64,000 nucleotides of DNA, from contig NZ_CP108488.1 of NCBI RefSeq assembly GCF_035987325.1, forward strand, positions 5,022,001-5,086,000, written 5' to 3'. This stretch comes from Streptomyces sp. NBC_01244. GTDB taxonomy: Bacteria; Actinomycetota; Actinomycetes; Streptomycetales; Streptomycetaceae. The notes under the pieces were generated by a model, which saw only the letters and a program-made list of their open reading frames with translations, ran no database searches and had not been told where the DNA came from. This document shows, piece after piece, positions 1 through 19,786 of this stretch. The number at the start of each line of letters is the position of its first letter. Within the stretch, counting starts at the first letter, position 1. A program made the translations under genes and the position numbers.

Positions 1-442
1 AGGAGTCGGCGGCGCCGGCCGGGCGGGCCTGGTCCAGGATGTACGCCGCCTGCTCGGCGGCTTCGGTGACGGCGGCCGCGGCGGCCCGTACGACACCGAG
101 CGGGACCCCGGAGACGCGGGCGGTGATCCGCTCGTGGGCGGCGGGGTCCAGGCCGCCGATGGTGTCCTCGGCGAAGATCCGGCCGGCCCGGGCGAGCAGC
201 GCGAACCGCTCCGCGGCGGGCGGCGGGGAGGCGGCCCGCAGGGCTGCCATGGTGCGCCGCACGTACAGCCGGGGCACCAGGCCGAGGGTGGCGGCGGGGC
301 GGCCGGCGACATCGGTGAGCGTGATCCGGTTGCGGGCGCGGAAGGTCCCCGAGGGCCCGAGGGCGTCCAGGGCGGGCAGCGTGTCCAGGGTGTCCGGCAC
401 GGGCGGCGCGGGCGGCGCGGGCGGCTCTTCGGGGGCGGCCAT
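1..442 (-). CDS. LuxC-like acyl-CoA/acyl-protein reductase, N-terminal part (cut by window edge)
   Basis: The gene starts at ATG 440-442 and runs off the left edge, so only about 147 residues are visible. They resemble the N-terminal part of LuxC-type acyl reductases of the aldehyde dehydrogenase superfamily, with a segment reading FAEDTIGGLDP and then VSGVPLGVVRAA. Its start overlaps the stop of the adenylating enzyme gene upstream (TGATG), so the two are translationally coupled. A LuxE/EhpF-type activator beside a LuxC-type reductase normally reduces a carboxylic acid to an aldehyde with NADPH. I infer that role here, probably on a chorismate-derived aromatic acid. The catalytic cysteine would lie outside the window, so activity cannot be judged. 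Confidence 0.6.
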   Translation of the reverse strand, partial: MAAPEEPPAPPAPPVPDTLDTLPALDALGPSGTFRARNRITLTDVAGRPAATLGLVPRLYVRRTMAALRAASPPPAAERFALLARAGRIFAEDTIGGLDPAAHERITARVSGVPLGVVRAAAAAVTEAAEQAAYILDQARPAGAADS

Positions 443-1512
443 CAGTAGACCCCTTCGATCACGGTCTCGTTGTCGAACTCCCTGACCGGCGCGATGTCCG
501 CGACCGAGTCCCCGGTCTGCTCCGCGCCGTGCGGGGGCCGGATCCGGGTGGCGTGGTCCCGCTCCAGGTTGTTCGGCATGAGCAGGCTCCGGCTCACGTG
601 GTGCATGACCACCTGGCCGCGCTCCCCGTACGCGACGGGCCGCCGGGTCTCGGGGTCGACCACCGACAGCGTCATGTAGGGCGAGTACGGGTCGTACACG
701 CACGGGTCGTCGTGTCCGAGCCCCGGCCGCTCGCCGGCGTTGCCGAGGATCATCGTGCTGCCGTACCCGCTGTAGAGGACGGTGTCCGGGAAGACCTCCG
801 TGCGGTACAGGTACCGGCTGTCGGCGTCCATCTGGGTGCCCACCCAGTTGATCGCCCGCACCTTCTCGTTGACCAGCTCCGCCAGCTCCGTGTCGGCCGC
901 GATCCGCTCCAGCACGGGCGGGGTGCACATGAGCACCCCGATGTCCTGGCTGCGCAGCACGTACCGCACCTGGTCCAGGATGTGCTCGGCGTACGCCCCG
1001 GCCCCGGCGGTGTCGCCGCGTGCGATGAGCTTCTTCACCCAGCGCGGGTCGAGGTCCACACCGAAGGTGAGGCCGCCCCGGTGGGCGGTCTGCCGTTTGA
1101 TGATGTCGCCGACCATGTGGGGGCCCGAGGGCACCACCGAGAGCCAGTTCACCCCCTGCGGGACCCCGTGCGCGTCGAGTTGGGCGCTGCTCCATTCGAC
1201 GAGGCGGTCCAGCCAGTCCCGCAGCAGCACGATCCGCTTCGGGGCGCCGGTGGTGCCACCGCTCTCGTACACGCCCACGACGTCGGGGCGTTCGCCGTAG
1301 CCGCGCGGGATCAGGTCCTCGGCGCGTACGTCGCGCAGCTCGCCGGCGTAGTTGGGGAAGCGGGTGAGGTCGGCGAAGGTGCGGATGTCGGTCAGCGGGT
1401 CGAAATCCAGGTCCCGGACCCGGTCCAGCCAGAACGGAGAGCCGGTCTCGGGGGAGAAGTGCCAGCGCATGGCGGAGCGCAGGAACTCCTCGGGGTCTTC
1501 CGTGGGGAACAC
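442..1512 (-). CDS. EhpF/LuxE-like adenylate-forming enzyme (ANL superfamily, no C-terminal lid)
   Basis: This 356-residue protein carries the ANL phosphate-binding signature ESGGTTGAPKRI at about residues 100-111. It has an adenine-side motif around YSGYGSTMI and ends without the roughly 100-residue mobile lid of acyl-CoA ligases. That short form is known for EhpF, the phenazine-dicarboxylate adenylating protein, and for LuxE-like acyl-protein synthetases. The start is GTG 1510-1512, chosen because AGGAG lies six bases upstream; the frame is open further upstream but that part is antisense-like and overlaps the NAT gene. The stop overlaps the start of the LuxC-like gene. I infer that it activates an aromatic carboxylate, such as 3-hydroxyanthranilate or a derivative, for reduction. 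The substrate is unknown. Confidence 0.72.
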   Translation of the reverse strand: MFPTEDPEEFLRSAMRWHFSPETGSPFWLDRVRDLDFDPLTDIRTFADLTRFPNYAGELRDVRAEDLIPRGYGERPDVVGVYESGGTTGAPKRIVLLRDWLDRLVEWSSAQLDAHGVPQGVNWLSVVPSGPHMVGDIIKRQTAHRGGLTFGVDLDPRWVKKLIARGDTAGAGAYAEHILDQVRYVLRSQDIGVLMCTPPVLERIAADTELAELVNEKVRAINWVGTQMDADSRYLYRTEVFPDTVLYSGYGSTMILGNAGERPGLGHDDPCVYDPYSPYMTLSVVDPETRRPVAYGERGQVVMHHVSRSLLMPNNLERDHATRIRPPHGAEQTGDSVADIAPVREFDNETVIEGVY

Positions 1513-1562
1513 GGTGCTCCTGAGGGGTGGGGAGAGCGGGGAGGGATGGGGGAGGGCGCCGG

Positions 1563-2378
1563 TCAGGACGCGCCCAGCCGGACCGCGCCGGCCGCGTCCA
1601 CGTCGAGGTCCGGCGGGATCTCGTCGAGCTCGATGCCGAAGTGCTCGCGGTAGGTCTCGATCACCTGGGAGTCGTCGTCGAGGCGCTCGGAGAACCGGTC
1701 GGCCCCCACCTGGCGCAGCAGGGTGCGGCCGATCAGGGTGACCCGGCCGTCCTCGGTCGGCAGGGAACACAACTGGCTCTGCAGGAACGGCGATTCCGCG
1801 CTGGTGCGGTACCACCACAGGGTGGCCCGCAGGTCCTCGACGGCGATCGGGCGGGGCTCCACGCGGTACTGCGCATGGGTGTTCATGAAGAGCTCGTGGC
1901 CGCCGTCGGGCAGCGGCGCGAGCCGGTAGACCCCGTGCGGGTCCCGCTGGTCGGCGCGGGTGTCGAGGGACAGCGGGTGGCGGCTGTTGCGGCCGAAGCC
2001 GACGTCGACGAGCCAGTCCCCTTCCGCGGTGCGCACGCGCAGCACCACGTGGCCGAGCGGGACGCCGAGCACCCCGTCGATCCAGACCCGGGCCGGCAGC
2101 AGCTCCACGTCGAAGCCGAGGGCCCGCAGCAGGTGGGCGAAGGAGGGGTTGACCTCGTAGCAGCCGCCGCCGCGGCGTTCGTAGACGATCTTGTGGACGA
2201 TGGTGTGGTCGAGGCGGATCGGCTTGCCCGCGTAGTAGTGCAGGTTCTCGAACGGCACGCTCAGCACGTGCCGTTCCTGGAGGTCGCGCAGGGCGGCGGC
2301 ATCCGGCCGGACCGGGTGCGCGGCCCCGATGCGGGCCAGGTAGGCGTCCACCAGCTCCGGATCGAGCGTCTCGGACAT
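1563..2378 (-). CDS. Arylamine N-acetyltransferase family protein (putative amide synthase)
   Basis: The 271-residue protein has the NAT fold with its Cys-His-Asp triad intact: C73 in RGGGCYEVN, H110 in PLGHVVLRV and D125 in WLVDVGFG. NAT enzymes transfer an acyl group from CoA or a carrier protein to an aromatic amine. In ansamycin clusters a NAT homologue (RifF type) closes the amide bond. I chose ATG 2376-2378 because GGAGGA lies nine bases upstream; a GTG at 2406-2408 overlapping the KAS III stop is the alternative and adds ten residues. It lies between KAS III and the adenylating enzyme. With 3-hydroxyanthranilate as the predicted amine, N-acylation of that amine is a reasonable inference. 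A second NAT paralogue lies at 27,263-28,108. Confidence 0.85.
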   Translation of the reverse strand: MSETLDPELVDAYLARIGAAHPVRPDAAALRDLQERHVLSVPFENLHYYAGKPIRLDHTIVHKIVYERRGGGCYEVNPSFAHLLRALGFDVELLPARVWIDGVLGVPLGHVVLRVRTAEGDWLVDVGFGRNSRHPLSLDTRADQRDPHGVYRLAPLPDGGHELFMNTHAQYRVEPRPIAVEDLRATLWWYRTSAESPFLQSQLCSLPTEDGRVTLIGRTLLRQVGADRFSERLDDDSQVIETYREHFGIELDEIPPDLDVDAAGAVRLGAS

Positions 2379-2404: not shown

Positions 2405-3418
2405 TCACCAGCGCAGCAGGGTGAGCCCCATGGTCATGCCGCCGCCGAACGCGGCGAGCAGCACGAGGTCACCGGCGGCGAGGGCACCGGACCTGGCGGT
2501 CAGATCGAGGGTGAGTGGGACGGAGGCGGCCCCCGTGTTCCCGTACGCGGCGAAGGAGCCCCGGGTACGGTCGGCGGGGATGCCGAGGCCGGCGGCGAGC
2601 TCTTCGAGCATCCGGCCGTTGCCCTGGTGGGGGACGAAGTGCGCGAGGTCGGCGGGCCGCACCCCGCAGTCGGCGAGGAACCGGGCCACGGCGGGCACCA
2701 CCTCGGCCGCGACGAAGTCCCGTACCCCGCGCCCGTTCATCGTGAACCGGTGCTCGCCGCGGGCCAGGGTCTGCGCCGAGGACGGCAGCCGGCTGCCGCC
2801 CGCGGCGACCCCGACGAGTTCCCGCTCGGCGCCGAAGGAGGCCAGCCGCGAGGCGATCAGGCCCCGCCCGGATTCCGGCCGCACGGGGCCGAGCACCACC
2901 GCGCCCGCGCCGTCGCCGAAGAGCACGACGGTGCGCCGGTCGGCGGGGTCCAGGATGCGGGAGTAGACGTCGGCGCCGATGACGAGGGCGTGGCCGGCGC
3001 CGCCGGAGGTCCGCAGCAGTCCTTCGGCGGTGGCCAGGGCGAACGCGAAGCCGCTGCACACCGCGTTGACGTCGAAGGCGGCGGTGCCGTGGCCGATGCC
3101 CAGCTCGTCGGCGACGAAGCAGGCGGTCGCGGGCTGCGGGCTGTCGGGGGTGGAGGTGCCCAGCACGATCAGCGAGAGGTCGCGGGCGCGCAGCCCGGCG
3201 TCCTGGAGCGCGGCCCGGGCGGCCTGGACGGCCAGGTCTCCGGTGGCCTCGTCGGGTTTGGCCCAACGCCGCTGCCGGATGGCCGTCTTGGCGTGGATCC
3301 AGGCGTCGTCGACACCGGCCTCCGCGCCCGCCTCGTCGTTGGTGACGATGCGGGACGGGGTGGCCGATCCGGTGCCCAGGATGCCGATCCGGCGGGCCGC
3401 TGCCCTCGTGGTCAGCAC
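2405..3418 (-). CDS. 3-oxoacyl-ACP synthase III (KAS III/FabH-like)
   Basis: This 337-residue thiolase-fold enzyme keeps the FabH triad: C121 in [10 protein letters not shown]264 in [10 protein letters not shown] and N294 in AYGNTGAAS. The [10 protein letters not shown] and C-terminal GGGMTMG loops are also normal. KAS III enzymes condense an acyl-CoA starter with malonyl-ACP, and cluster-borne relatives can also act as acyltransferases making esters or amides. The start is GTG 3416-3418, which overlaps the stop of the dehydroquinase gene; the 3' end meets the NAT region. Because a 2-oxoacid dehydrogenase set lies in the same cluster, a branched or unusual acyl-CoA starter made by that complex is a plausible substrate. 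That link is inference only. Confidence 0.88.
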
Positions 3419-3942
3419 GGGCCGTGCACCTCCCGGGCCACGGCGTGCAGCGCGAGCCGGTAGGAGCCGGCGCCGAGGCCCGAGATCGTCCCGCTCGCCA
3501 CCGGGGAGATCACCGAGCGGTGGCGGAACTCCTCGCGGGCGTACGGGTTGGAGAGGTGGACCTCGATGAGCGGCGCGGTCCGCTGGGCGGCGGCGTCGCG
3601 CAGGGCGTACGAGTAGTGGGTGAAGGCGGCGGGGTTGAGGACGACGGGGATCTCGCCGTCGGCGGCCTCGTGCAGCCAGCGCACCAGGTCGGCCTCGGCG
3701 TCGCTCTGGCGGACCTCGACGTCCAGGCCCAGTTCCCGGCCGGTCCGGCGGCAGCTCTCGGCCAGCTCCTCATGGCTTCCGGCGCCGTAGATGCCGGGCT
3801 CGCGGCGGCCCAGCCGGCCCAGATTGGGCCCGTTGATCACCAGGACGGGAACCGGGGCAACCGGGGCGGCGGGGACGGCCGGGACGACGGGATCGGCTGG
3901 GGAACCGGCGGAACCGGTGGAACCGGCGGAACCGGCGGTCAT
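3412..3942 (-). CDS. aroQ: 3-dehydroquinate dehydratase, type II
   Basis: This enzyme converts 3-dehydroquinate to 3-dehydroshikimate, step three of the shikimate pathway. After a low-complexity Ala/Gly/Ser/Pro N-terminus of about 30 residues come the type II motifs [20 protein letters not shown] (with catalytic Tyr), [15 protein letters not shown] (with catalytic His), and EVHLSN. The segment [16 protein letters not shown] closes the active site. The mature core is about 145 residues, the usual size, in a 176-residue product. ATG 3940-3942 overlaps the chorismate synthase stop as ATGA, which fixes the start. The repeated GGAACC(GGC/T) DNA near the start encodes the low-complexity tail. It is a cluster-dedicated copy in a run with aroC and aroA. 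Confidence 0.9.
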
Positions 3943-5126
3943 CGGATGCGCAGGTGGTCGAGGTAGGACCGGACGTTGCGCCGCGTCTCGGGGACGGAGT
4001 CGCCGCCGAACTTCTCCAGCAGAGCGTCCGCGAGCACCAGGGCCACCATGGCCTCCGCGACGATCCCGGCGGCCGGGACGGCGCACACGTCGGAGCGCTG
4101 GTGGTGGGCGACCGTCGCCTCGCCCGTCGCCACGTCGACGGTCGCCAGCGCGCGCGGCACGGTCGCGATGGGCTTCATCGCGGCCCGTACCCGCAGCAGT
4201 TCACCGGTGGTCAGCCCGCCCTCGGTGCCGCCGGAGCGGCCCGAGGTGCGCTTGAGACCGCCGTCGGTGGAGACGATCTCGTCGTGCGCCTTCGACCCGG
4301 GCACCCGGGCGAGCTCGAAGCCGTCGCCGACCTCCACGCCCTTGATGGCCTGGATGCCCATCAGCGCGGCCGCCAGACGCGCGTCCAGGCGCCGGTCCCA
4401 GTGGACGTGCGAGCCGAGCCCGACGGGCACGCCGTACGCCAGCACCTCGACGACGCCGCCCAGGGTGTCGCCGTCCTTGTGGGCCTGGTCGATCTCCGCG
4501 ACCATCGCCTTGCTCGCGTCCGCGTCCAGGCAGCGCACCGGATCCTCGTCCAGCCGGTCCACGTCGGCCGGCGTCGGGTACACCCCGTACGGGGCCTTCG
4601 CGGCGTTCAGTTCCACCACGTGCGAGACGATCTCGATGCCCGCGGCCTCCTTGAGGAAGGACCGGGCGATCGCGCCGAGCGCGACCCGGGCGGCGGTCTC
4701 CCGGGCGCTGGCGCGCTCCAGGATCGGCCGGGCCTCGTCGAAGCCGTACTTCTGCATCCCGGCGAGGTCGGCGTGACCGGGCCGCGGCCGGGTCAGCGGT
4801 GCGTTGCGGCCCGTCTCCTTCAGCTCCGAGGGGTCCACGGGATCGGCCGACATGACCTTCTCCCACTTGGGCCACTCGCTGTTGCCGACCATGACGGCGA
4901 CCGGGGAGCCCAGCGAACTGCCGTGCCGGACGCCACCGAGGAAGGTGATCTCGTCCTGCTCGAACTTCATCCGCGCCCCGCGGCCGTAGCCGAGCCGGCG
5001 CCGCGCCAGGTGCTCCGCGACCAGGGCGGTGGTGACGGGAACGCCGGCCGGCAGCCCCTCCAGGGTGGCGACCAGCGCGGGCCCGTGGGACTCGCCGGCG
5101 GTCAGCCAGCGCAACCTGCTCAGCAC
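3939..5126 (-). CDS. aroC: Chorismate synthase
   Basis: This enzyme makes chorismate from EPSP using reduced FMN. The 395-residue sequence shows family signatures in order: [18 protein letters not shown] at the N-terminus, [42 protein letters not shown], the [16 protein letters not shown] block, and near the C-terminus [17 protein letters not shown]. Length and motifs are typical of actinobacterial AroC. The start is GTG 5124-5126, six bases after the aroA stop, and the stop overlaps the dehydroquinase start. Its presence in the operon indicates boosted chorismate supply. It is presumably additional to a housekeeping copy elsewhere, which cannot be verified here. Confidence 0.95.
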
Positions 5127-5132
5127 GTTCTC

Positions 5133-6476
5133 TCACTGCTCCTTGTCAAGGCGGATCTGGTACTCGGGGAAGAGCCTGTTCAGCTCGGTGTGGAACTCGG
5201 GGAAGGTCTTGGCCACGCACGCCGGGTCGTCCAGCGTCAGCGGCACGGAACTGCCCAGGCCCAGTACGGCGAACGACATCGCGATGCGGTGGTCGCGATG
5301 GCAGTCGACGACGGCCGGGCGCGGGGTGCCGGGGTGGACGGTGATCCGGTCCGGCCCCTCCTCCACGCGGATCCCGCAGGCCCGCAGGTTCGCGGCCACC
5401 GCGGCGATCCGGTCGGACTCCTTCAGCCGGGCGTGCGCGATCCCGGTGATGGTGACCGGCCCGTCGAAGAGCGGCGCGATGGCGGCCAGGGTCATGAAGG
5501 TGTCGGAGATCTCGCCCATGTCGACGGTGAAACCACCGGTCAGCCGTCCGCCGGCCGGGCCGGTGACGGTGGTCGAGTGCAGGCCGATCTCCACCTCGGC
5601 GCCCGTCAGCTCCAGCACCCGGGCGAACCGCAGGTCCCCCTGGAGGCTGCTGCTGCCCAGACCGGGCACGGTCAGGGTGCGGCCGGTGACGGCCGCCGCC
5701 GCGAAGAAGTACGAGGCGGTCGACGCGTCCGGCTCGATCACCAGGTCCGTCGCCGCGTACCCGCCGGGTCGGACCGTGACCGTACCGGCGTCCTCGCTCA
5801 CGTCCGCGCCGAAGCGCCGCATCAGTGCCAGGGTCATGTCCAGGTACGGGCGGCTCACCAGGCGCGGCACGTCCACCGTGAGCGGGCCGGTCATCAGCGG
5901 GCCGGCCATCAGCAGCCCGCTCAGGTACTGGCTGCTGAGGCCGGAGTCCAGCTCCACGACGCCGCCCGCCAGCCCCCGGGCGGCCACGGTCAGCGGCAGT
6001 CCGCCGTCCGGGCCCGCCGCGACCTCGGCGCCGAGCCGGGTCAGGGCCCGGGTGAGCGGGCCCAGCGGGCGGGCCCGCAACTGCTCGGAGCCGTCGAAGA
6101 CGAAGCTGCCGCGTCCGGTGGCCGCGAAGGGCGGCAGGAAGCGGGCGGCGGTCCCGGCGTCCGCGCACCAGACCCGGCCGGGGGCGTACGGGCCGCCACC
6201 GGTGCCGGTGACCTCCCAGCACTCGTCGGAGGGGGTGGTGGAGGTGCTGATGCCGATCGCGGTCAGGGCCCGCCGGAAGGCGACGGTGTCGTCGCTGACC
6301 AGCGGTGCCCACAGGCCCGAGGTGCCGCGTGCGGCGGCGGCCAGCAGCAGGGCGCGGTTGGTGAGGCTCTTGGATCCCGGGATCCGGGCGGACAGGGCGG
6401 ACGCGGCGGCTGCCGTGTTGGGCGACAAGGTGGCTCCAGGTCGGGACTGGTGGTCAGGACGCGGGGTGCCGGACAC
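5133..6476 (-). CDS. aroA: 3-phosphoshikimate 1-carboxyvinyltransferase (EPSP synthase)
   Basis: This enzyme transfers enolpyruvyl from PEP to shikimate-3-phosphate. The 447-residue protein has the expected landmarks: PGSKSLTNRALLLAA near residue 33, the PEP-site loop DAGTAARFLPPF, SSQYLSGLL, PDASTASYF, ISDTFMTLAAIAP, RLKESDRIAA and DHRIAMSFAVLGLG. The glyphosate-site loop reads DAGTAARF rather than the NAGTAMRP of enterobacterial enzymes, as in other non-enterobacterial lineages. The start is GTG 6474-6476, three bases after the transketolase-domain gene. A distal ATG-rich upstream extension is not needed. It belongs to the minus-strand run chorismate mutase, TK-C domain, aroA, aroC, dehydroquinase. 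Confidence 0.94.
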   Translation of the reverse strand: MSGTPRPDHQSRPGATLSPNTAAAASALSARIPGSKSLTNRALLLAAAARGTSGLWAPLVSDDTVAFRRALTAIGISTSTTPSDECWEVTGTGGGPYAPGRVWCADAGTAARFLPPFAATGRGSFVFDGSEQLRARPLGPLTRALTRLGAEVAAGPDGGLPLTVAARGLAGGVVELDSGLSSQYLSGLLMAGPLMTGPLTVDVPRLVSRPYLDMTLALMRRFGADVSEDAGTVTVRPGGYAATDLVIEPDASTASYFFAAAAVTGRTLTVPGLGSSSLQGDLRFARVLELTGAEVEIGLHSTTVTGPAGGRLTGGFTVDMGEISDTFMTLAAIAPLFDGPVTITGIAHARLKESDRIAAVAANLRACGIRVEEGPDRITVHPGTPRPAVVDCHRDHRIAMSFAVLGLGSSVPLTLDDPACVAKTFPEFHTELNRLFPEYQIRLDKEQ

Positions 6477-6479
6477 CCC

Positions 6480-6914
6480 TCACGACAGGCCCTGGTTGCG
6501 GGCCCTGTGGGCCCGGGCCAGGCCGGCCCGGGCTGCGCTGGCGACGCGGTGGGCGGTCAGCCCGCACTGCTGGTACAGGCTCCGGTAGCTGCCCCAGCGG
6601 CCGAACCGGTCCAGGCTCGCGGTCTGGCCCGCACCGCCGGCCATGGCGTACCAGCCGAGGGCCGAACCGGCCTCGACGGACACCCTGACCGCCGTGTGCG
6701 GGGCCAGGACCGCATCGCGGTAGGCCTGGTCCTGGGCGAGGAACCGGTCGGGGCGGGGAACCGACACCACGCGGGTGCCGATGCCGTCACGCTCCAGGAT
6801 CGCCCGGGCTTCCAGGGCCACGGCGGTCTCACCGCCGGTGGCCACCAGAACCGTCAGGGGTGTACCGCCGGATGCTTCGACGAGGACGTAGCCCCCGCGT
6901 GCTTCATCGCTCAT
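6480..6914 (-). CDS. Stand-alone transketolase C-terminal domain protein
   Basis: The 144-residue product matches only the last domain of transketolase. Residues 20-130 show TVLVATGGETAVALEARA, RVVSVPRPDRFLAQDQAYRD, VSVEAGSALGWYAMAGG and a final DRFG...GLTAHRV segment, as in the C-terminal third of TktA-like enzymes. The thiamine-binding and pyrimidine-binding domains are absent and no reading frame for them lies upstream. The gene is intact, starts at ATG 6912-6914, and ends three bases before aroA. In full-length transketolase this domain does not bear the catalytic residues. Transketolase supplies erythrose-4-phosphate for DAHP synthase, so the placement is suggestive, but a domain alone should not catalyse the reaction. 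A partner outside the window or a regulatory role is possible. Confidence 0.78.
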   Translation of the reverse strand: MSDEARGGYVLVEASGGTPLTVLVATGGETAVALEARAILERDGIGTRVVSVPRPDRFLAQDQAYRDAVLAPHTAVRVSVEAGSALGWYAMAGGAGQTASLDRFGRWGSYRSLYQQCGLTAHRVASAARAGLARAHRARNQGLS

Positions 6915-7058: not shown

Positions 7059-7379
7059 TCAGTCCTGGCCCCGGCCCAGTTCGAGGAGCACGCGGGCGAT
7101 CGCCTCGCCGGAGCTGCCCAGTTCACGCTCGTAGGTGCCGAGGATCTGCTCCTCGCGGTAGTACACGATGCGCGGGCCGCCGGCCCCCATCCGGGCCTTC
7201 TGGACCCGGCTGGAGATCTGGATCCGCTCCTTGATCAGTGAGATCAGGCGGCGGTCGACCTCGTCGATGTCGCTCCGGTGCGCGAGGACGGCCTGCACGG
7301 CCCGGGCGGCGTTGCCGGCGTCGCTGCGGACCCCGGTGAGCAGGCTCGTGCCGCTGATCGGACTCATGTCGACGGACAT
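7059..7379 (-). CDS. Chorismate mutase, AroQ (all-helical) class
   Basis: This is a 106-residue one-domain mutase converting chorismate to prephenate. The helical signature is present: RSDIDEVDRRLISLIKERI, then SRVQKARM carrying the active-site Lys, and YYREEQILGTYE with the Arg/Glu pair. There is no prephenate dehydratase or dehydrogenase domain and no signal peptide. ATG 7377-7379 is preceded by GGGAG; its first bases overlap the end of the TetR gene. With PhzE in the same cluster, chorismate has two fates here: ADIC for the aminobenzoate branch and prephenate for an arylpyruvate branch. The second could feed the neighbouring oxoacid dehydrogenase, which is inference. Confidence 0.88.
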   Translation of the reverse strand: MSVDMSPISGTSLLTGVRSDAGNAARAVQAVLAHRSDIDEVDRRLISLIKERIQISSRVQKARMGAGGPRIVYYREEQILGTYERELGSSGEAIARVLLELGRGQD

Positions 7380-11625: not shown

Positions 11626-11699
11626 CGGCCACACAGCCCGGCGCCGGACACGCGGCACCGGAACGGCTGTGCAGGGCTGTTGAGACTTTTCAGGGACCG

Positions 11700-12665
11700 C
11701 TACGGCGTGCGGAGCGGGACCGTGCGCTGCCGCTCGTGGCGGCCCGCACGGGCCCGGAGGACGATCTCCGCCCGCGCGCCCTCACCACGGGTCTGCAGCG
11801 TGCGCTCCTCGCTGCGGCCCGCGAAGCGGTACTCCTCGCCGCCGACGTGGACCAGCGGCAGCGTCCGGCCGCTGGCCAGCCGCAGGACCATCCGGCCGGC
11901 CGCGGGCTCGGGCGCCAGCACCGCGCGCTGGGCCGCCGCGTAGCCGTCCAGCGGGTCCGCGTGCTCCCGCAGGAAGAAGGCGGACGGCAGCTCGAAGGCC
12001 CGGGGCGGGGCCTCGAGAGCGGCCTGCGCGACCGGCCGGGCGATCCGGTTGACCAGGACGTCACCGGACCGGAACCAGTCCCGCCAGGCCACCGGGAAGA
12101 GACGGGCGAGCGGCTCGGTCAGCAGCACGTCCAGGGCCAGGTGCACCGAGTGCTCCGAGCCTTGGTTGCGGACCTGGTGGGTCCGCGTGAAGTCACCGAA
12201 CCACAGGTCACCGGGGTTCCAGCGGTGGACCTCGCCGTCGAGCAGGAGCAGGGTCTGGGCGTTGGTCTCCACCGGGACGTGCAGCCGCGCCGTTCCCCAG
12301 TACGGGCCCTGCGCGGCCTCGATGCGGCCGACCGCGCCGCTGCCGGGCGCCCGGCACAGGAACCGGGCACTGACGACCGGTGCGGGCACCGCTTTCAGGA
12401 TGTAGCGGGTGTGCGGCAGCCGCTCCAGCCACGGGGTGTCGGTCCAGTCCCCGTCCGGGCCGTCCGCGGGGATGCCGGGCAGGGCCCGCCCGCCCGGTGC
12501 CCGCAGCACCAGGCTGCGCCAGTCGTCGGAGGGCGGGCAGACCCGCCGCAGCTCGGCGGCGAGCCAGCCCGCGTTGAACGACGGGGCGAGCCGGGCCGCC
12601 GCCGGCATGGCGGCGGCGGCCGGTCTCGTCCCGGGGCGTTCCGCGGTGAGTGTGGCGGCAGTCAC
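11700..12665 (-). CDS. Aspartyl/asparaginyl beta-hydroxylase-like Fe(II)/2-oxoglutarate oxygenase
   Basis: A 321-residue protein whose middle part carries the AspH-domain pattern: ARLHVPVETNAQTLLLLDG, then HRWNPGDLWFGDFTRTHQVRN and SVHLALDVLL. The His residues in ARLHVP and RTHQVRN are the likely iron ligands, as expected for this cupin-type double-stranded helix, and the later Arg/His region would hold 2-oxoglutarate. The C-terminal 120 residues are of unknown type. The GTG start (12663-12665) overlaps the PhzE stop as GTGA, so it is coupled to the aminobenzoate pathway. Hydroxylation of a pathway intermediate is inferred; the substrate is unknown. Confidence 0.7.
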   Translation of the reverse strand: MTAATLTAERPGTRPAAAAMPAAARLAPSFNAGWLAAELRRVCPPSDDWRSLVLRAPGGRALPGIPADGPDGDWTDTPWLERLPHTRYILKAVPAPVVSARFLCRAPGSGAVGRIEAAQGPYWGTARLHVPVETNAQTLLLLDGEVHRWNPGDLWFGDFTRTHQVRNQGSEHSVHLALDVLLTEPLARLFPVAWRDWFRSGDVLVNRIARPVAQAALEAPPRAFELPSAFFLREHADPLDGYAAAQRAVLAPEPAAGRMVLRLASGRTLPLVHVGGEEYRFAGRSEERTLQTRGEGARAEIVLRARAGRHERQRTVPLRTP

Positions 12666-14647
12666 GACGCCGGGCCCGGACCGGCGGGGGAGGACGGCGC
12701 GTGTACGCCCCCTTCCCGCGCCGGCTGCCCGCCGACGAGCAGTTCGCGGATCAGCCCGCCGACGATGGCCGGCCCGTTGCGGGTGAGCAGCGATTCGGCG
12801 TGGAACTGCAGCGAGGCGAAGTGCGGCCCGCGCAGGGCGTGCACGTCGTCCGTCTCGGGGTCCCGGCTGAGCTCGATGACGCCGACCCCGTCGACCTCCA
12901 CCTTGTCCTCGGGGGAGCGCGCGGCGAAGGTGTTGTAGAACCCGACCAGTTCGGGGGTCCCGAAGAGCTGGACCGGCTTCTGGACGCCCTGGTTCGGGGT
13001 GTCGCGGCGGACCAGCGGGAGCCCGAGGAGGGTGCTGAGCACCTGGTGGCTCAGGCAGACCGCGAAGAACGGCCGCTTCTCGGCCAGGAGCCGGCGGACC
13101 GTGCCCCGCAGGTGCGAGATCTTGGGGTCGCCGGTCTCGCGCGGGTCGCCCGGGCCGGGGCCCATCACCACGAGGTCGTAGTCGTCGATCTCGTACGGCT
13201 CGTCGAAGCGGCGCACGGTGACCGTCATGCCCAGGGAGCGCAGCTGCTGGTCGATCATCGAGGTGAAGGTGTCCTCGGCGTCCACCACCAGGATCCGCTT
13301 GCCGCTGAGCACCGGATCGTGCGCGGTGCGCAGCCGCTCCTCGGGGTCGTCGAACCAGAAGCGGGCCACGTTCTCGTTGCGGCTCTCCAGCGCGGCGCGG
13401 ACCTCGGGGTGCTCGCGGAAGGTCACCGGTCCCCGGTCCTTGAGCGCGTCGAGCAGCGAGGCGGCCTTGGCCCGGGTCTCGGCGACCTCGCAGTCCGGGT
13501 CGGAGTGGCGCACCAGGGTCGCGCCGACGCCGATGCGGACCTGGCCGGCCCCGTCGATCTCGGCGGTCCGGATCAGGATCGCGGAGTCCATCGCCCGCTC
13601 GCCCCGCTCGTCGCGGCCGATGAGCGCGAGCACGCCGCTGTAGTAGCCGCGCCCCTGGGGCTCGTAGCGGGAGATGACACGGGCCGCGCTCTCCAGCGGG
13701 CTGCCGGTGACCGTCGGCGCGAACAGCGTCTCGCGCAGGATCTCCCGCGGGTCGCGCGTGGTGCGGCCCGAGATGAAGTACTCGGTGTGCGCGAGGCGGG
13801 CCATCTCCTTGAGGTGGGGTCCGGTGACGATGCCGCCCGCGTCGCAGATGCGGGCCATCATCTTGAGTTCCTCGTCGACGACCATGTACAGCTCGTCGGC
13901 CTCCTTGCGGTCGGCGAGGAAGTCGAGGATCTCGGGCACGGAGGGGCCCTGGGCGGGGTAGCGGTACGTCCCGCTGATCGGGTTCATCACCGCGGTGCCG
14001 TCGTCGAGGCTGACGTGCCGCTCGGGGCTGGCGCCGACGAGGGTCCGCTCACCGGTGTGGACGATGAACGTCCAGTAGGCTCCCGTCTCCGCGCTCAGCA
14101 GCCGCCGGTAGAAGGCGAGCGCGTGGCGCGGCGAGTAGTCGGAGATGTCGGCGACGAAGGAGCGGCGGATGACGAAGTTCGCGCCCTCGCCCCGGCCGAT
14201 CTCGTTGTCGATGATCTTCCGGACGGTGTCGGCGTACACCTCGTCGGTGACGTCGAAGACGCCCTCGGAGACGTCCAGCGGCAGGTCGGGCAGGAGCGAC
14301 AGGCCCGTCGAGAGGGGCAGCTCGTACTGCTCCTCGACGAGCAGCGACAGCAGCGGGGCGCCGTCGTCGGGGGCGTGGAACCCGCGCTCGGCGAGCTGCC
14401 GGTACGGGATCAGGGTCAGCACCTCGTGCCCGGGGCCGGCGGCGCCGTCCTCGGCGAGCGGGATGCCGGCCAGGTTCTCGTACTCCGCGACCGTGCCGGT
14501 CAGCACCTCCAGCCGGCCGGGTCCGGCCGACTCGGGGCGGTGGAGCACGGCGAAGGCGGGTGGATGCTCCCCGGTGATCCGGCGCAGCAGCCCGGTCGCG
14601 AGAGCGGTCCGGTCGGCCTGGTCCACGGTGTCTTCGTGGTCGGTCAT
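12662..14647 (-). CDS. phzE: 2-amino-2-deoxyisochorismate (ADIC) synthase, PhzE type
   Basis: A 661-residue fusion of an anthranilate-synthase-like chorismate-binding domain (about residues 20-430) and a class I glutamine amidotransferase (about 455-650). The synthase part shows [33 protein letters not shown] and [10 protein letters not shown]; the amidotransferase has [10 protein letters not shown], the nucleophile Cys in FAVCLSHQ and His/Glu in FHAESL. Fused TrpEG proteins look similar, but the adjacent PhzD gene indicates the product is ADIC rather than anthranilate. ATG 14645-14647 overlaps the PhzD stop. It is the entry point of the aminobenzoate branch from chorismate. Confidence 0.9.
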
Positions 14648-15267
14648 GCGGTGATCTCCTTGGTGGTGGTGACCGCGGCACAGCGCTGGGCCGCGTACTC
14701 CAAGGTCATCCGGTGGTGCGCCTCGGAGAAGTCGGCGATGGCGTCGGCGACGAGGAACGGCTGGATGTCGTTGGTGAACGCCTCTAGCACGCTGGCCAGC
14801 ACACCCACATGCGCGTACACACCGACGGTGATCAGCTGGTCGCGGCCCTGGGCCCGCATCTGTTCGAGCAGGTCGGTACGGAAGAAGGCGCTGTAGCGCC
14901 ACTTGGTGAGCACCCGGTCGCCGGGGCGCGGAGCCAGCGGCTCCACCACGTCCCGGTCGACCGGGTCGGTCCGCATCCCCGGCCCCCAGAAGTCGCGCAG
15001 CAGACCGCGCTCCTTCTCGGTCATCCCGCCGGGCTGGGCGGTGTAGTACGTCGGCACGCCGCGCTCGGCGCAGAACTCGCGCACCTGGACGGCGTTGGCG
15101 ACCACTTCCTCGCGCAGCGCGCCGGGCAGCGGATTGAGGAAGTACCGCTGCATGTCATGGATCAGCAGGACCGCCCGGTCCGGGTCTACCGACCAGGCAG
15201 CGGTGTTCTCGGGCAGATCGCCCGACGTCGGCAAGGGGTAGGAGCTGATGGTCGGGATCCCGGCCAT
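14644..15267 (-). CDS. phzD: Isochorismatase-like ADIC hydrolase, PhzD type (makes DHHA)
   Basis: This 207-residue alpha/beta hydrolase cleaves the enolpyruvyl ether of ADIC to give trans-2,3-dihydro-3-hydroxyanthranilate. The key residues sit at the numbering known for PhzD: D38 in [10 protein letters not shown] and K122 in [10 protein letters not shown]. The usual cysteine of related cysteine hydrolases is absent after VGVYAHVG, as expected for vinyl-ether hydrolysis that does not need it. There is no carrier-protein domain of the EntB type. The start is ATG 15265-15267; the 133 bases upstream to the dehydrogenase gene are non-coding. Confidence 0.92.
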
Positions 15268-15400: not shown

Positions 15401-16204
15401 CTATGCGCCGAGCGAGGCGCCTCCGTCGACCGTCAGGACGTGCAGGGTGATCTGCTCGGCCTCGTCGGACAGCAGGAAGGCGACGGCGTCGGCGATGTTG
15501 TCGGGCTGGGCGATGCGGCCCAGCGGAATGCCGATGCGGAAGGCCTGCGGGCTGCCTTCGAGGGTGCCCCGGGAGGCCGACTCGTCCGGCCACATGGAAC
15601 GCAGCATCGGGGTGTCGGTGGATCCCGGCGCGACGATGTTGCAGCGGATCCCGTACCGGGCGACCTCCAGGCCCAGCGACTTGGTGAACATCGCCGCGGC
15701 GGCCTTGGAGGCGGCGTAGGCGGCCATGTCGGAGCGCGGGACCGCGGCCGCGTTGGAGGCGACCGTGACGAGCGCGCCCCGGTTGCGGGGCAGCATCCTG
15801 CGGGTGACGGCGCGGGAGAGGTGGAACACCCCGTCCACGTTGACCCGGAAGGTGGTGTGCCAGTCCTCGTCGCTGTAGTCGACGACCTTGCCCAGGCGCA
15901 GCACGCCGGCGGAGTTGACCAGGTACTCGATCGGCCCGAGCTCTTCCTCGACCCGGTCCACGGTCTCCTCGACGGCCTCGCTGGAGGTGACGTCGGCGGG
16001 ATGGGCGACCACGCGTGGCGCACCGTCCGGGCGCTGCCCCAGTTCCGCGTCGAGCTCCTCGTTCAGCTCCTTGACGGCCCATGCGAGCGGGTCCGGGTAC
16101 CGGTCCACCGCGGCGACCAGCACCCCGGACCGGGCCAGGCGCCGGACGACACTGCGTCCGATTCCTCCTGCCGCGCCCGTGACGACGGCGACCTTCTCCT
16201 CCAT
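15401..16204 (-). CDS. Short-chain dehydrogenase, DhbA/EntA-like (probable DHHA dehydrogenase)
   Basis: A 267-residue SDR with the nucleotide-binding motif TGAAGGIG at residues 9-16, NSAGV, and the catalytic pair in AAYAASKAA. The C-terminal segment [11 protein letters not shown] is typical. DhbA/EntA enzymes oxidise a cyclohexadiene diol to the aromatic ring. Next to PhzE and PhzD the logical substrate is DHHA, giving 3-hydroxyanthranilate, as seen in benzoxazole and some pyrrolobenzodiazepine pathways. ATG 16202-16204 is preceded by GAAGGAGGGG. No PhzF competitor is present, which supports aromatisation over phenazine formation. Confidence 0.85.
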
Positions 16205-16298: not shown

Positions 16299-17477
16299 TC
16301 ACTTCTGCCAGGCGGTCACGACCGAGATGGCCTGCGCCGGGTTCAGCCGCGGGTCGCAGAAGCTCGTGTACGTCCGGCCCACCCGGTGGTTCGCGGCCTC
16401 GGTCGGCACGCACTCCGTGACGTCCTCGGGGGTGGTCTCCAGGTGGAGGCCGCCCGCCACGCCGCCCACGGACTCGACGGCGAACTGGAAGGCCTGCACC
16501 TCGCGCTTCACGGTCTCGATGTGCCGGGTCTTGTGGCCGCTCGGCGTGGACACGGTGTTGCCGTGCATCGGGTCCGACAGCCAGATGACCGGGTGGCCGG
16601 CCCTGCGGACCGCCTCGACCAGCGGCGGCAGCGCGTCCACGATGGCCTCGGAGCCCATCCGGCTGATCAGCGTGAGCCGGCCCGCCTCCCGCTCGGGGTC
16701 CAGGGTCCGGCACAGCGCCAGCAGTTCGTCCTCCGTCATGGAGGGGCCGACCTTGCAGGCCACCGGATTGGAGACCTCGGCCAGCAGCGCCACGTGCGCG
16801 CCGTCCAGTTGGCGGGTCCGCTCGCCGATCCACGGGAAGTGGGTCGACGAGAGGTACGTACCGCCCTCGCCGTCCGCGCGCAGCTGGGGCAGCTCGTAGT
16901 CCAGCAGCAGCGCCTCGTGGCTCGTCCACACCTGGGGTTCGAGCGCGGGCCGGGACGGGGACACCGGGCCCTGCCAGCCCAGGTGCTTCGTGATCTCGCT
17001 GGCGGCCATGTAGCCGACGAGCAGGCGCAGCGGGTCCGGGCGGCGGGATTCGGCGTCGGCCTCCGGGGCGTTGACCAGGTGGCCGCGGTAGACGGGGAGT
17101 TCGACGCCGTCGACGATCTCGGTGCCGTTGGAACGCGGCTTGGCGAACTGGCCCGCGATCCGGCCCACCCGGACCACCGGCTTCTGCGTGATCATCTTGA
17201 AGGCGCCCGCGATCAGGTCCAAGACGGCCGTCTTGCGGTGCACGTCCCGCGCGGTGCTCTCGTCGGGGTCCTCGGCGCAGTCGCCGGACTGGACCAGGTG
17301 CGCCTCGCCCCGCGCGACCACGGCGAGGGCGGCGCGCAGGGCGCGTACGTCCTGGGCACGCACCAGCGGCGGCCGTCCGGCCAGCTCCCGGCGCACCACG
17401 TCGACCTGGGCGTGGTCGTCCCATTCGGGCTGCTGCAGAGCCGGCTTCAGTCGGATGTCGAGCGTGATGTTGTCCAC
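16299..17477 (-). CDS. 3-deoxy-D-arabino-heptulosonate 7-phosphate synthase, type II (PhzC-like)
   Basis: This enzyme condenses PEP and erythrose-4-phosphate, the first shikimate step. At 392 residues it is shorter than the roughly 450-residue housekeeping class II enzymes and similar to PhzC-type versions in secondary pathways. Motifs include VQSGDCAED near residue 63, VVRVGRIAGQFAKPRS, YLSSTHFPWIGERTRQ, NPVACKVGPSM, LSDPMHGNT and GGLHLETTPEDVTEC. The short form suggests reduced allosteric control by aromatic amino acids, which is known for such paralogues and not shown here. The start is GTG 17475-17477 after AGGAAG. The gap of 94 bases to the SDR contains GC-rich inverted repeats. Confidence 0.92.
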   Translation of the reverse strand: MDNITLDIRLKPALQQPEWDDHAQVDVVRRELAGRPPLVRAQDVRALRAALAVVARGEAHLVQSGDCAEDPDESTARDVHRKTAVLDLIAGAFKMITQKPVVRVGRIAGQFAKPRSNGTEIVDGVELPVYRGHLVNAPEADAESRRPDPLRLLVGYMAASEITKHLGWQGPVSPSRPALEPQVWTSHEALLLDYELPQLRADGEGGTYLSSTHFPWIGERTRQLDGAHVALLAEVSNPVACKVGPSMTEDELLALCRTLDPEREAGRLTLISRMGSEAIVDALPPLVEAVRRAGHPVIWLSDPMHGNTVSTPSGHKTRHIETVKREVQAFQFAVESVGGVAGGLHLETTPEDVTECVPTEAANHRVGRTYTSFCDPRLNPAQAISVVTAWQK

Positions 17478-17514: not shown

Positions 17515-19206
17515 TCACGCGGGAGCCAGACCCCACCCGAGGTCGTCCCAGAAGCGCAGTTGACGCTGTTTGCCCAGGGCGCCGATCACGGCGGCGGGCG
17601 CGTGCGCGCCGTGCCCGCCGAGGATCAGGGCGGTCGGCCGGCCGGGGGAGAAGCGCGGCCAGGCGGGGGCGCCGGGACTCGCGGGCACGCCGGTGCGGGC
17701 GAAGGAACCGACGAGGTCCGCGAGGATCCCGGCGATCTCGCGCTCGGCCGGCCCGTCGCCGAACTCGGCCACGTGCTCGGGCAGTCGATGGGTACCGAAG
17801 AGGAATTTGGACGTCGCCTCGTGGGGCGTGCCGAAGTAGGGGGCGCGCACCGGGTGCGCGAACTCCATGACGTACGAGGGGGAGTGGCCCGCCCGTGCGT
17901 GGCGTTCGGCGGTGCGCAGCACGGGGTGCCGGAAGAAGGCGTCGCCCCAGATCTCCGTCCAGAGGTCGAGGGGCCGCGTGGGGCGTCCCTCGGCCAGGGC
18001 GGCCTCCCGGTAGACCGCGACGCACCGCTCGGCGAGCGAGGCCGCGGCGCCGGGCAGCCCGTACCGCAGGAAGTCCTGGACGAGGGAGGTAAGTTCGGCC
18101 TCGTCGGCCGGGGCCGGCGGTGCCAGGGGGGTGGGTGCGGACGGCCCGGTGAAGAAGGCGCCCTCGGTACGGGTGTGCACGGACAGGACCGGCAGGTCGG
18201 GGGCGGGCCGCTCGTGTTCGAAGGCCGGGAGCCATTCGCCGTCGCGCACCGGGCCGCGGAACGCGCGGCCGGAGGCGACGATCCGCCCCTTGGAGCGCGG
18301 CGCGGTCAACTCTGCCCAGGCGGCGCCGAGTTCGGAGGCAGGCACCTCGCGCAGCCCCGGGACCGTGGTGGCGAACCGGGCGGCGAGCGCGGCGTGGACG
18401 CCGCGGGCGTCCTCGGCGGTGAACGCGAGCGCGGGCTCCCACTGGTGGGCGGCGCTGATCGCGACGAGGCGCCGGATCAGCCGGCGGGTGGCGGGCAGCA
18501 GGGCGAGCTGGTGGGCGGACGTCCCGCCGGCCGAGGTTCCGACGAGGGTGATGTTGCCGGGGTCGCCGCCAAACGCGGCCGCGTTGTCGTGCACCCACTG
18601 CACGGCGGCCGCCTGGTCCTGGAGTCCCCAGTTGGAGAAGGAACCGGTCTCCGGGTCGGTCAGGTCCTCGTGCAGGCCGAAGCCGAAGACCCCGAGCCGG
18701 TAGTTGAAGGTGACCACGACGGCGTCGGTGCGCGCGGCGAGCCAGGAGCCGTCGAAGGTGGGCAGGTTCCCGGATCCGGCGATCCAGGCCCCGCCGTGCA
18801 CGTAACAGAGCACCGGCCGGGAGCCGGTGGTGGCGGGGGTCCACACGTTGGCGTGCAGGGCGTCCTCGCTGCCCGCTCCGGTGGGCTGGCAGAAGGGCGG
18901 GCCGTAGGCGGTGGCGTCCCGTACCCCCGTCCAGGGCGCGGGCGGCCGCGGCGAGGCGAAGCGCAGCGGGCCGACGGGGGGCGCGGCGTAGGGGACGCCG
19001 CGGAAGGCGAGCACGCCCGCGCCGGCGGCGCCGCGGACCTCGCCCGCGGTGGTACGGGCCCGGGGCGGGCCGGCGGCTGCCCGGGTCGCGGCGCCGGACT
19101 CGGACTCGGTCGCGGCCCCGGCTCCGGTCCGAGCCCCGGTCTGGGCCCCGGTCTCGATCCGGGTCGCGCCTCGGGTCTCGGCCGGCGCGGCGTACACGGT
19201 TGCCAT
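17515..19206 (-). CDS. Type B carboxylesterase
   Basis: A 563-residue alpha/beta hydrolase of the carboxylesterase B family. After about 55 low-complexity residues the family core begins (LAFRGVPYAAPPVGPLRF). The oxyanion hole HGGAW and the nucleophile elbow GTSAGG, with the less common Thr instead of Glu before Ser, are present. The catalytic His is probably that in YFGTPHEATSK. No convincing signal peptide precedes the core, so it is likely cytoplasmic. It starts at ATG 19204-19206, directly after the flavodoxin gene. It may hydrolyse or transfer an ester or amide of the cluster product, or remove a protecting acyl group. Confidence 0.87.
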   Translation of the reverse strand: MATVYAAPAETRGATRIETGAQTGARTGAGAATESESGAATRAAAGPPRARTTAGEVRGAAGAGVLAFRGVPYAAPPVGPLRFASPRPPAPWTGVRDATAYGPPFCQPTGAGSEDALHANVWTPATTGSRPVLCYVHGGAWIAGSGNLPTFDGSWLAARTDAVVVTFNYRLGVFGFGLHEDLTDPETGSFSNWGLQDQAAAVQWVHDNAAAFGGDPGNITLVGTSAGGTSAHQLALLPATRRLIRRLVAISAAHQWEPALAFTAEDARGVHAALAARFATTVPGLREVPASELGAAWAELTAPRSKGRIVASGRAFRGPVRDGEWLPAFEHERPAPDLPVLSVHTRTEGAFFTGPSAPTPLAPPAPADEAELTSLVQDFLRYGLPGAAASLAERCVAVYREAALAEGRPTRPLDLWTEIWGDAFFRHPVLRTAERHARAGHSPSYVMEFAHPVRAPYFGTPHEATSKFLFGTHRLPEHVAEFGDGPAEREIAGILADLVGSFARTGVPASPGAPAWPRFSPGRPTALILGGHGAHAPAAVIGALGKQRQLRFWDDLGWGLAPA

Positions 19207-19207
19207 G

Positions 19208-19786
19208 TCAGGCCTCCTGGCGGGCGCGGGCGAGGGCGCGGGCGAACCAGGCGGTGCGGGCCGCCTGGAACCGGACGGCGGCGACGGCGTCCTCGTGGAC
19301 GGTGCCGGGATCGGCGCCGGAGGCCGTGTGGGTGCCGTACGGGTTCCCGTTCTGCGGCAGGTAGAGCACCGGGTGGGCGGAGCCCATCGGGATGACGGCG
19401 GCGCCCCAGTGGCAGATCACGCTGTGCAGGGACTGGATGGTGTTGTCCAGCCCGCCGTTGCGGGAGGACCCGGCGACGAAGGCCGAGGCGGCCTTGTGGA
19501 CGAAGGCGCCCGCGTGCGAGAGGTGGGGGGTGGTGTTGACGAACTCCAGCAGCGGCGCGGCCGGCAGGCCCCAGTGCGAGGGGCTGCCCAGCAGGATGCC
19601 GTCGGCCCACTCCAGGTCTTCGGGGGTGGCGTCGGGGGTGCCGGGCTCGCGGCCCGCCTCGGGGGTACCGGGCACCGCGCGGAGTCGGACCTCCGCACCG
19701 GCCTCGCGTGCCGAGGCCGCCGCCTCCTCGGCCAGTCCGCGGACCGTACCGGTGGCGGAGTAGTAGATCACGGAGACGGTGGTCAT
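19208..19786 (-). CDS. WrbA-like flavodoxin / NAD(P)H:quinone oxidoreductase family protein
   Basis: A 192-residue flavodoxin-fold protein. The FMN phosphate loop reads VIYYSATGTVRGLAEE at residues 6-21, and SPSHWGLPAAPLLEF and AGSSRNGGL are flavin- and loop-contacting segments as in WrbA. It would reduce quinones using NAD(P)H. The start is ATG 19784-19786, first gene of the long leftward operon; only one base separates its stop codon from the esterase start. The 215-base leader upstream contains a TTGACG box on the minus strand (complement of 19,908-19,913) that could be a -35 element. A role in quinone/aminophenol redox handling fits the aminophenol product predicted for the cluster. Confidence 0.85.
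   Translation of the reverse strand: MTTVSVIYYSATGTVRGLAEEAAASAREAGAEVRLRAVPGTPEAGREPGTPDATPEDLEWADGILLGSPSHWGLPAAPLLEFVNTTPHLSHAGAFVHKAASAFVAGSSRNGGLDNTIQSLHSVICHWGAAVIPMGSAHPVLYLPQNGNPYGTHTASGADPGTVHEDAVAAVRFQAARTAWFARALARARQEA

Follow-up and report, generated by a model that had tools for sequence, protein, structure and literature searches.

Streptomyces sp. NBC_01244 carries a leftward run of shikimate and 3-hydroxyanthranilate genes at the start of a 64,000-nucleotide stretch of its 10.0-Mb genome (G000:C1:5022001-5086000, hereafter the window). We found that this run is one half of a larger biosynthetic gene cluster. The other half, left of the window, encodes two likely sources of nitrite and two AMP-binding enzymes resembling CreM of the cremeomycin diazo pathway. 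We put the probability at roughly 70% that this is a nitrite-dependent cluster of the diazaquinomycin, nybomycin, streptonigrin and penzonemycin kind, acting by the stepwise reactions proposed below. The kind of cluster is known, and the combination of genes is new to the comparisons that we made.

Extent and gene content of the cluster

The initial annotation described a leftward run of named genes at positions 1-19786 and suggested extending the sequence to the left. Pfam and NCBIfam profiles recovered the named genes, and all called genes from 19786 down to 1 are minus-strand genes, most of which overlap slightly or are separated by short gaps. However, the run is only half of the cluster. 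Its LuxC-like gene leaves the window, and in an additional 32 kb that we analysed the cluster continues for ~22 kb to the left. Genes were called with a codon-position script, and families were assigned from Pfam and NCBIfam profiles and from PDB sequence matches. Outside the window, the position on genome contig C1 is 5022000 plus the window coordinate. The locus is best explained as a cluster of ~42-47 kb that starts 21.9 kb outside the left edge of the window and ends ~19.8 kb, or perhaps 24.8 kb, into it. The left flank contains the following genes (MFS, major facilitator superfamily; NAT, arylamine N-acyltransferase).

-21889 to -20876, minus strand: quinone oxidoreductase-like protein (g007; PF00107/PF08240)
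-20265 to -19723, plus strand: SRPBCC protein (g009; PF10604)
-19616 to -18039, plus strand: first CreM-like AMP-binding enzyme (g010; PF00501)
-18020 to -16755, plus strand: FAD hydroxylase (g011; PRK08163, 444 bits, just below the cut-off of 459)
-16758 to -14770, plus strand: CreE-like protein (g012; 8cp2, 660 bits)
-14773 to -13307, plus strand: CreD, nitrosuccinate lyase (g013; NF052556, 756 bits, cut-off 650)
-13310 to -11940, plus strand: MFS transporter, probably specific for nitrate (g014)
-11947 to -9833, plus strand: molybdopterin oxidoreductase of nitrate reductase type (g015; PF00384, PF01568, PF04879)
-9836 to -8547, plus strand: NirB-like N-terminal flavoprotein (g016; NirB N-terminal half)
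-8550 to -7348, plus strand: NirB-like N-terminal flavoprotein (g017; NirB N-terminal half)
-7270 to -6596, minus strand: flavodoxin (g018)
-6596 to -4998, minus strand: FAD monooxygenase (g019)
-5001 to -3427, minus strand: second CreM-like AMP-binding enzyme (g020)
-3364 to -2510, minus strand: NAT (g021; PRK15047, 113 bits, below the cut-off of 493; Cys motif)
-2405 to -1224, minus strand: MFS exporter (g022)

Enzymes of the families found here convert aspartate to nitrosuccinate and then to nitrite, or nitrate to nitrite. The CreE-like protein has a sole PDB match at 1e-5, 8cp2, which we take to be an aspartate N-hydroxylase. CreD carries an SSxMPxKxN motif at residue 313 and scores 576 bits against the CreD structure versus 262 for muconate cycloisomerase. 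Muconate cycloisomerase, the name given to such proteins in older tables, is ruled out by the NF052556 score and by the match to the CreD structure. From g011 to g017, all on the plus strand, each pair of neighbouring genes shares 4 to 8 bases, and the transporter gene overlaps creD by 4. The nitrate reductase has a second copy, 65% identical, elsewhere in the genome. Since the alignments of g016 and g017 are confined to the first half of NirB, without the nitrite-reducing half, this operon would take the reduction no further than nitrite. Both CreM-like enzymes have an AMP-binding domain and a YGQSE motif.

The genes inside the window are as follows (SDR, short-chain dehydrogenase/reductase; SARP, Streptomyces antibiotic regulatory protein).

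1 to 442, whole gene -997 to 442, minus strand: LuxC-like acyl reductase, C-terminal part in the window (g023; PF00171, 42 bits)
442 to 1512, minus strand: EhpF-like activator (g024; EhpF structure 3l2k, 272 bits)
1563 to 2378, minus strand: NAT (g025; PF00797, 183 bits)
2405 to 3418, minus strand: KAS III (g026; PRK09352, 319 bits; Cys-His-Asn motifs)
3412 to 3840, minus strand: type II dehydroquinase, aroQ (g027; TIGR01088 equivalog, 182 bits, cut-off 170)
3939 to 5126, minus strand: chorismate synthase, aroC (g028; TIGR00033, 454 bits, cut-off 212)
5133 to 6428, minus strand: EPSP synthase, aroA (g029; TIGR01356, 381 bits, cut-off 287)
6480 to 6914, minus strand: transketolase C-terminal domain only, a probable remnant (g030; PF22613)
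7059 to 7379, minus strand: chorismate mutase type II (g031; PF01817, 33 bits, cut-off 27)
7364 to 7948, minus strand: TetR regulator (g032; PF00440)
7945 to 9273, minus strand: E2 acyltransferase (g033; PF00198, PF00364, PF02817)
9288 to 10310, minus strand: E1 beta (g034; PF02779/PF02780; PRK09212, 268 bits, below the cut-off of 321)
10313 to 11632 as an open frame, called as 10313-11266, minus strand: E1 alpha (g035; PF00676)
11700 to 12608, minus strand: Asp/Asn beta-hydroxylase-like protein (g036; PF05118)
12662 to 14647, minus strand: PhzE, ADIC synthase (g037; PhzE 3r74, 746 bits)
14644 to 15267, minus strand: PhzD, isochorismatase (g038; PhzD 1nf9, 327 bits)
15401 to 16204, minus strand: DhbA-like SDR (g039; PF00106)
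16299 to 17477, minus strand: class II DAHP synthase (g040; PF01474, 435 bits)
17515 to 19014, minus strand: carboxylesterase (g041; PF00135)
19208 to 19786, minus strand: WrbA-like flavodoxin (g042; PF03358)
20002 to 24787: likely regulatory border with SARP, TetR, SDR, HAD and AfsA-type butyrolactone synthase genes (g043-g047)

Five kinds of gene had been left out of the earlier gene list: the Asp/Asn hydroxylase-like protein, TetR, the esterase, the WrbA-like flavodoxin and the transketolase C-terminal piece. The largest intergenic gap, 433 bases before E1 alpha, is an artefact of an E1 alpha start called too late. Homology in this protein starts at about residue 82 of the open frame, and the true start is probably near 11.4 kb.

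Enzymes of the PhzE and PhzD families lead from chorismate through 2-amino-2-deoxyisochorismate (ADIC) and 2,3-dihydro-3-hydroxyanthranilate (DHHA) to 3-hydroxyanthranilate. The initial annotation proposed this route, and the structure matches of both proteins support it. By sequence similarity scores, g037 does not group with plain anthranilate synthases; such a grouping had been named as counting against the proposal. The best anthranilate synthase scores 63 bits and aminodeoxychorismate synthases score 94 and 72, versus the 746 bits for PhzE, which rules out a plain anthranilate synthase. Likewise, PhzD scores higher against 1nf9 than against the best isochorismatase (210 bits). Among the genes scanned, which were part of the total, we identified none of the phenazine markers PhzF and PhzB/PhzG and no AroB, AroE or AroK, leaving a partial shikimate set. 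AroC has two further copies in the genome (94% and 75% identical) and AroA has three (75, 56 and 37%).

The transketolase piece aligns to residues 572-701 of the 709-residue full-length enzyme of Streptomyces sp. TBY4. In strain C10-9-1 the C-terminal part alone was matched, and on contig C2 of the NBC_01244 genome a transketolase was matched over nearly its whole length. A stand-alone C-terminal domain is retained in two different clusters, that of the window and that of G361 (L139); it may be a remnant or may have a function of its own. Near 43-52 kb, contig C2 (300 kb; L172-L174) has genes for a DAHP synthase-like protein, AroC, transketolase and AroA. It also has another CreE/CreD pair near 133-137 kb, ~80 kb from these shikimate genes.

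The oxoacid dehydrogenase had been described as full. E1 alpha, E1 beta and E2 are indeed present, but no E3 was found among the scanned genes, where g017 is a poor match to the E3 model (73 bits against 409). The complex, which may be of the pyruvate or of the branched-chain type, would depend on an E3 encoded at another place in the genome. We discarded E1 alpha as a cluster marker, as it has matches in 293 of 295 genomes at 1e-85.

The name LuxC-like for g023 is a reading of its sequence: no NCBIfam model matched it, and its Pfam match is to an aldehyde dehydrogenase domain. The arrangement resembles the EhpF and GriC-GriD type, with a LuxC-like reductase adjoining the EhpF-like g024, and carboxylate reduction by g023 and g024 is predicted. 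N-acylation by NAT and carboxyl reduction by this pair, as first proposed, are plausible functions. In Streptomyces griseus NCTC13033 (L106), a LuxC/EhpF-like pair that is 59% and 58% identical lies beside cucumopine-synthase-like and DAO genes. We considered the pair as grixazone GriC/GriD through this locus and dropped the idea; none of its eight scanned neighbours (cucumopine-synthase-like, DAO, TerC and others) is grixazone-like.

At the right border, PF03704 was matched at 20002-20790 and PF03756 at 23918-24787, and the TetR, SDR and HAD genes were read by eye. The SARP and AfsA-like genes suggest control by a butyrolactone-type signal. On the other side, ~27.2-25.9 kb left of the window, an IS701-family transposase (g003 type; L009:4834-6090; NCBIfam 267 bits, cut-off 150) stands tail to tail with a GAF/PucR-type regulator. 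Homologues of this transposase (37-60% identical, one partial) occur in 17 of 33 other core loci, and the gene near the cluster may be domesticated.

Related loci and known clusters

We investigated how often the nitrite genes accompany the CreM-like genes. Related loci came from a scan with the LuxC-like protein, in which the best 80 of 217 relatives were kept as named loci, and from whole-genome searches. A first type of locus, with the LuxC/EhpF pair, 3-hydroxyanthranilate genes and CreM-like genes, occurs in Streptomyces, Kitasatospora and Sphaerimonospora. A second type has g019 and g020 without LuxC/EhpF in the 40 kb seen (G023, G259, G272, G108, G321, G134 and G009). When 392 genomes were searched with each protein, EhpF-like and g020 types were found together at one locus only in the window, as judged from coordinates and dependent on the thresholds of 1e-40 for EhpF-like and 1e-130 for g020. 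Relatives of g020 are found in Streptomyces sp. NPDC006487 (99% identical) and NPDC101132 (83%), and strains with close relatives of the cluster probably exist in public collections.

A gene of g010 type (at least 62% identity, 85% coverage) is present at 34 loci, the window included; the neighbourhood of each was viewed out to 22 kb, or as far as the sequence stretch allowed. An SRPBCC gene of g009 type lies nearby in 32 of them. CreE and CreD without a nitrate reductase are found at 16 loci (G361, L054, L060, L067, G023, G272, G017, G146, G196, G062, G233, G005, G219, G032, G080 and G259b). Both nitrite sources are found at eight (G250, G278, G108, G321, G134, G167, G173 and the window), the nitrate reductase only at four (L071, G009, G069 and G239), and CreE only at one (G259). 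No nitrite source was seen near the CreM-like gene at five (L053, L059, G105 and two pieces of G289), where contig or stretch ends limit the view at least in part, except at G105. A further genome, G071, has both sources by coordinates and stands outside this count. In G259 (L178-L179), CreE has no adjoining CreD, and a CreD lies elsewhere in the genome beside a second CreM-like locus.

The nitrate reductases near the g010-type gene at 11 other loci are 65-73% identical to that of the window cluster. Twelve of the 16 loci with CreE and CreD only are in genomes searched for the reductase, and none has a reductase near its g010-type gene among the matches listed. Within these 12 genomes, G005, G062 and G080 have no reductase match at 1e-200, and the matches of G017, G032, G196, G272 and G259 are all weaker than those listed by place. 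Conversely, no CreD match at 1e-100 was found for G009, and G069 and G239 are outside the 123 of 295 genomes that match at this threshold. CreD is too common at that frequency to serve alone as a cluster marker, and homologues up to 71% identical occur on Streptomyces plasmids. In G069 the aspartate route seems to have been lost: a fragment resembling CreD (residues 107-375, 48%), apparently its relic, is still present between g010 and the transporter.

The closest comparison is with diazaquinomycin. Its cluster has been placed on QZWF01000007.1 of Streptomyces sp. F001 (PMC9946207), a strain described as having two NATs, daqS and daqT (PMC11213898). The F001 locus has two adjacent NATs and matches the published placement, so we infer that it is the diazaquinomycin cluster. 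By direct comparison, it has 12 of the gene types of the window cluster clearly, and g042 weakly (38%) as a thirteenth. The shared genes are g007, g009-g013, g025 (in two copies), g026 and g037-g040, at 45-75% identity, in addition to an IS701-like g003. The F001 NATs are 45-48% identical to g025, its KAS III is 65% identical to g026, and its CreD scores 775 bits on the nitrosuccinate lyase model (cut-off 650). The same F001 NAT and CreM-like genes also match g002, g021 and g020, and its SDR also matches g045. The markers of the diazaquinomycin type (3-hydroxyanthranilate genes, CreE/CreD, CreM-like gene, NATs and KAS III) are all present in the window cluster. The two gene sets are not the same, since the window cluster adds LuxC/EhpF, g018-g020, g022, the nitrate reductase and E1/E2. 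In the 60-kb F001 locus, compared with g002-g049 at 1e-8, nothing else in that gene range matched; g014-g019, g022-g024, AroA, AroC and E1/E2 are among the genes that we did not find.

Published gene tables extend the likeness. For nybomycin, nybA-F, nybK and nybM-P are of the same gene types, and the table, which is our only basis here, lacks a carboxylate reductase, a second CreM-like gene, a nitrate reductase and E1/E2 (PMC6265801). The streptonigrin table contains the same types (stnH1, I, J, H2, K1, L, M1-M3 and N) in a larger pathway of 48 genes (PMC11206028). In these two tables the CreD-type gene is named muconate cycloisomerase or PcaB (PMC6265801, PMC11206028). Penzonemycin shares, by its table, the 3-hydroxyanthranilate core, CreD/CreE/CreM homologues, SRPBCC and a quinone reductase; it differs in its acyltransferase (171 aa) and an acetolactate synthase, with no KAS III, E1/E2 or LuxC/EhpF listed (PMC9323291). 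In the penzonemycin product, one and the same ring bears an acylated nitrogen at C2 and a hydrazone nitrogen at C4 (PMC9323291).

More distant are the cremeomycin and alanosine pathways. The former has nitrite supply by CreE/CreD and a CreM-like enzyme in common with the window cluster, and its CreM acts on 3-amino-2-hydroxy-4-methoxybenzoate (PMC11705231). In the alanosine family, nitrate/nitrite reductases have been suggested as the nitrogen source where CreE/CreD are missing; alanosine itself is derived from an amino acid, without 3-hydroxyanthranilate (PMC11705231). In searches limited to open-licence papers, we found no report of a nitrate reductase as nitrogen source for 3-hydroxyanthranilate clusters, or of nitrosuccinate linked to nybomycin, streptonigrin or diazaquinomycin. 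The claim that no described pathway has exactly this gene set holds against the clusters compared, although the core is already known from F001 and from the nybomycin, streptonigrin and penzonemycin tables.

Alternative explanations

The two halves of the locus could be independent adjoining clusters with separate products, one for 3-hydroxyanthranilate and carboxylate reduction in the window and one for nitrite and CreM-like chemistry in the left flank. The left operon (g008-g017) is on the opposite strand, and g018-g021 keep their order in G279, where LuxC/EhpF is absent, as do g018-g022 in G289. However, 3-hydroxyanthranilate, LuxC/EhpF and nitrite genes are held in one locus in TBY4, G250, C10-9-1, Kitasatospora purpeofusca, K. 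paracochleata and S. xiaopingdaonensis, and the F001 locus also unites 3-hydroxyanthranilate and nitrite genes. We consider two separate clusters very improbable. It is just as hard to credit that the nitrate transporter and reductase are ordinary assimilation genes that are here by chance. Such reductases are common, with matches in 203 of 295 genomes at 1e-200, some of similar identity away from CreM-like genes (G180). Against chance stand the overlaps of the nitrate genes with creD and with one another, the second reductase elsewhere in the genome, and the missing nitrite-reducing half of NirB. Moreover, a reductase lies near the CreM-like gene in 12 of the 34 loci, four of them without CreE/CreD.

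A further alternative, unlikely but less so than these two, concerns the CreM-like enzymes. They could be plain acyl-CoA or amide ligases with nitrite used elsewhere, or could act only as diazotases on amines whose nitrogen subsequently leaves as N2, the case known from avenalumic acid. Their best-scoring NCBIfam models are long-chain acyl-CoA ligases, and deamination by diazotisation has been published for avenalumic and p-coumaric acid (PMC11705231). On the other hand, close relatives of the CreM-like gene accompany a nitrite source in 28 of the 34 loci. Diazaquinomycin keeps two ring nitrogens, which also counts against this alternative. The same is true of nybomycin (PMC6265801), and the homologue Pzm18 has been proposed as the penzonemycin diazotase (PMC9323291).

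Returning to a single nitrite-dependent cluster, several observations weigh against it. Transcription runs in opposite directions in the two halves, which might in principle be separate neighbouring pathways. The CreM-like proteins reach 86 and 74 bits on the AvaA6 diazotase model NF058622, well below its cut-off of 975, and score better on general acyl-CoA ligase models; we infer the CreM-type reaction of g010 and g020 from their neighbours and from the published CreM homology of related genes. The LuxC/EhpF pair is also found in quite other settings, as in L106. Five loci show no nitrite source, and at G105 nothing was seen near the g010-type gene, with CreD and a reductase of similar type elsewhere in the genome. 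Reductases of similar identity away from any g010-type gene (G180, G105) are a related concern, and in G250 the reductase frame is split in the gene calls, so that this copy may be broken. Several of the 16 loci with CreE and CreD only were viewed over just 8-20 kb. Finally, the 34 loci share ancestry and were selected, not drawn at random, because they resemble window genes, so the numbers given for them are counts and not independent events.

Proposed pathway and significance

From the observed gene content, families, operon overlaps and relatives, we predict the reactions after 3-hydroxyanthranilate, their order and the product as follows. DAHP synthase, the extra AroQ, AroA and AroC, PhzE, PhzD and the SDR would make 3-hydroxyanthranilate. 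Nitrite would come from aspartate, through CreE and then CreD, and from nitrate, through the dedicated transporter and a nitrate reductase that lacks a nitrite-reducing domain. With its SRPBCC partner and reductases, g010, the first CreM-like enzyme, would use ATP and nitrite to install a second ring nitrogen, most likely at C4. The E1/E2 complex would supply an acyl-CoA, KAS III would form a beta-ketoacyl donor from it, and the NATs would use this donor to acylate an aryl amine. An aryl amine could possibly become a diazonium or diazo group through g020, the second CreM-like enzyme, and the LuxC/EhpF-like pair would reduce the ring carboxylate. More speculatively, an amine with a beta-ketoacyl group beside the reduced carboxyl might close to a 3-acyl-2-quinolone.

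To our knowledge, the diazaquinomycins have no N-N bond. Nitrite would therefore serve something else there, most simply as the origin of the second ring nitrogen. We also make a tentative proposal, which we hold at somewhat less than even odds, that the module which this cluster has in common with those of diazaquinomycin, nybomycin, streptonigrin and penzonemycin derives their second aromatic amine from nitrite. In it, g010 and SRPBCC would nitrosate C4 of 3-hydroxyanthranilate or of a dihydro precursor, and a reductase would convert the nitroso group to the amine. The aspartate source and a captured, dedicated nitrate reductase would have replaced each other in evolution. Among the clusters compared, that of the window alone would combine both sources, a diazonium-capable second CreM-like enzyme and a carboxylate reductase, and its product would thus be a new diazo-, hydrazone- or quinolone-type compound.

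For the acylation step there is precedent: NATs using a KAS III-derived beta-ketoacyl group have been proposed for nybomycin and diazaquinomycin (PMC6265801, PMC11213898). The nybomycin cluster expressed in S. albus also gave benzanthric acid, in which an anthranilate-derived ring is joined to a benzoate ring (PMC6965495). A diazonium origin of that biaryl bond is speculation on our part, and we do not use it as evidence.

Diazaquinomycin, nybomycin and streptonigrin contain two ring nitrogens, and published accounts differ on the origin of the second. In the nybomycin account, the conversion of chorismate to 4-aminoanthranilate is assigned to nybC, nybD, nybE and the amidohydrolase nybL (PMC6265801), whereas the penzonemycin account invokes an "unknown enzyme" for the second nitrogen (PMC9323291). 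Nitrite is indicated as the source of the second nitrogen by the nitrosuccinate lyase of the F001 locus and by the nitrate reductase found in its place in some relatives, an origin that is testable by labelling. These findings also suggest supplying nitrate when strains with such clusters are grown, and they make the window cluster a lead for a new compound.

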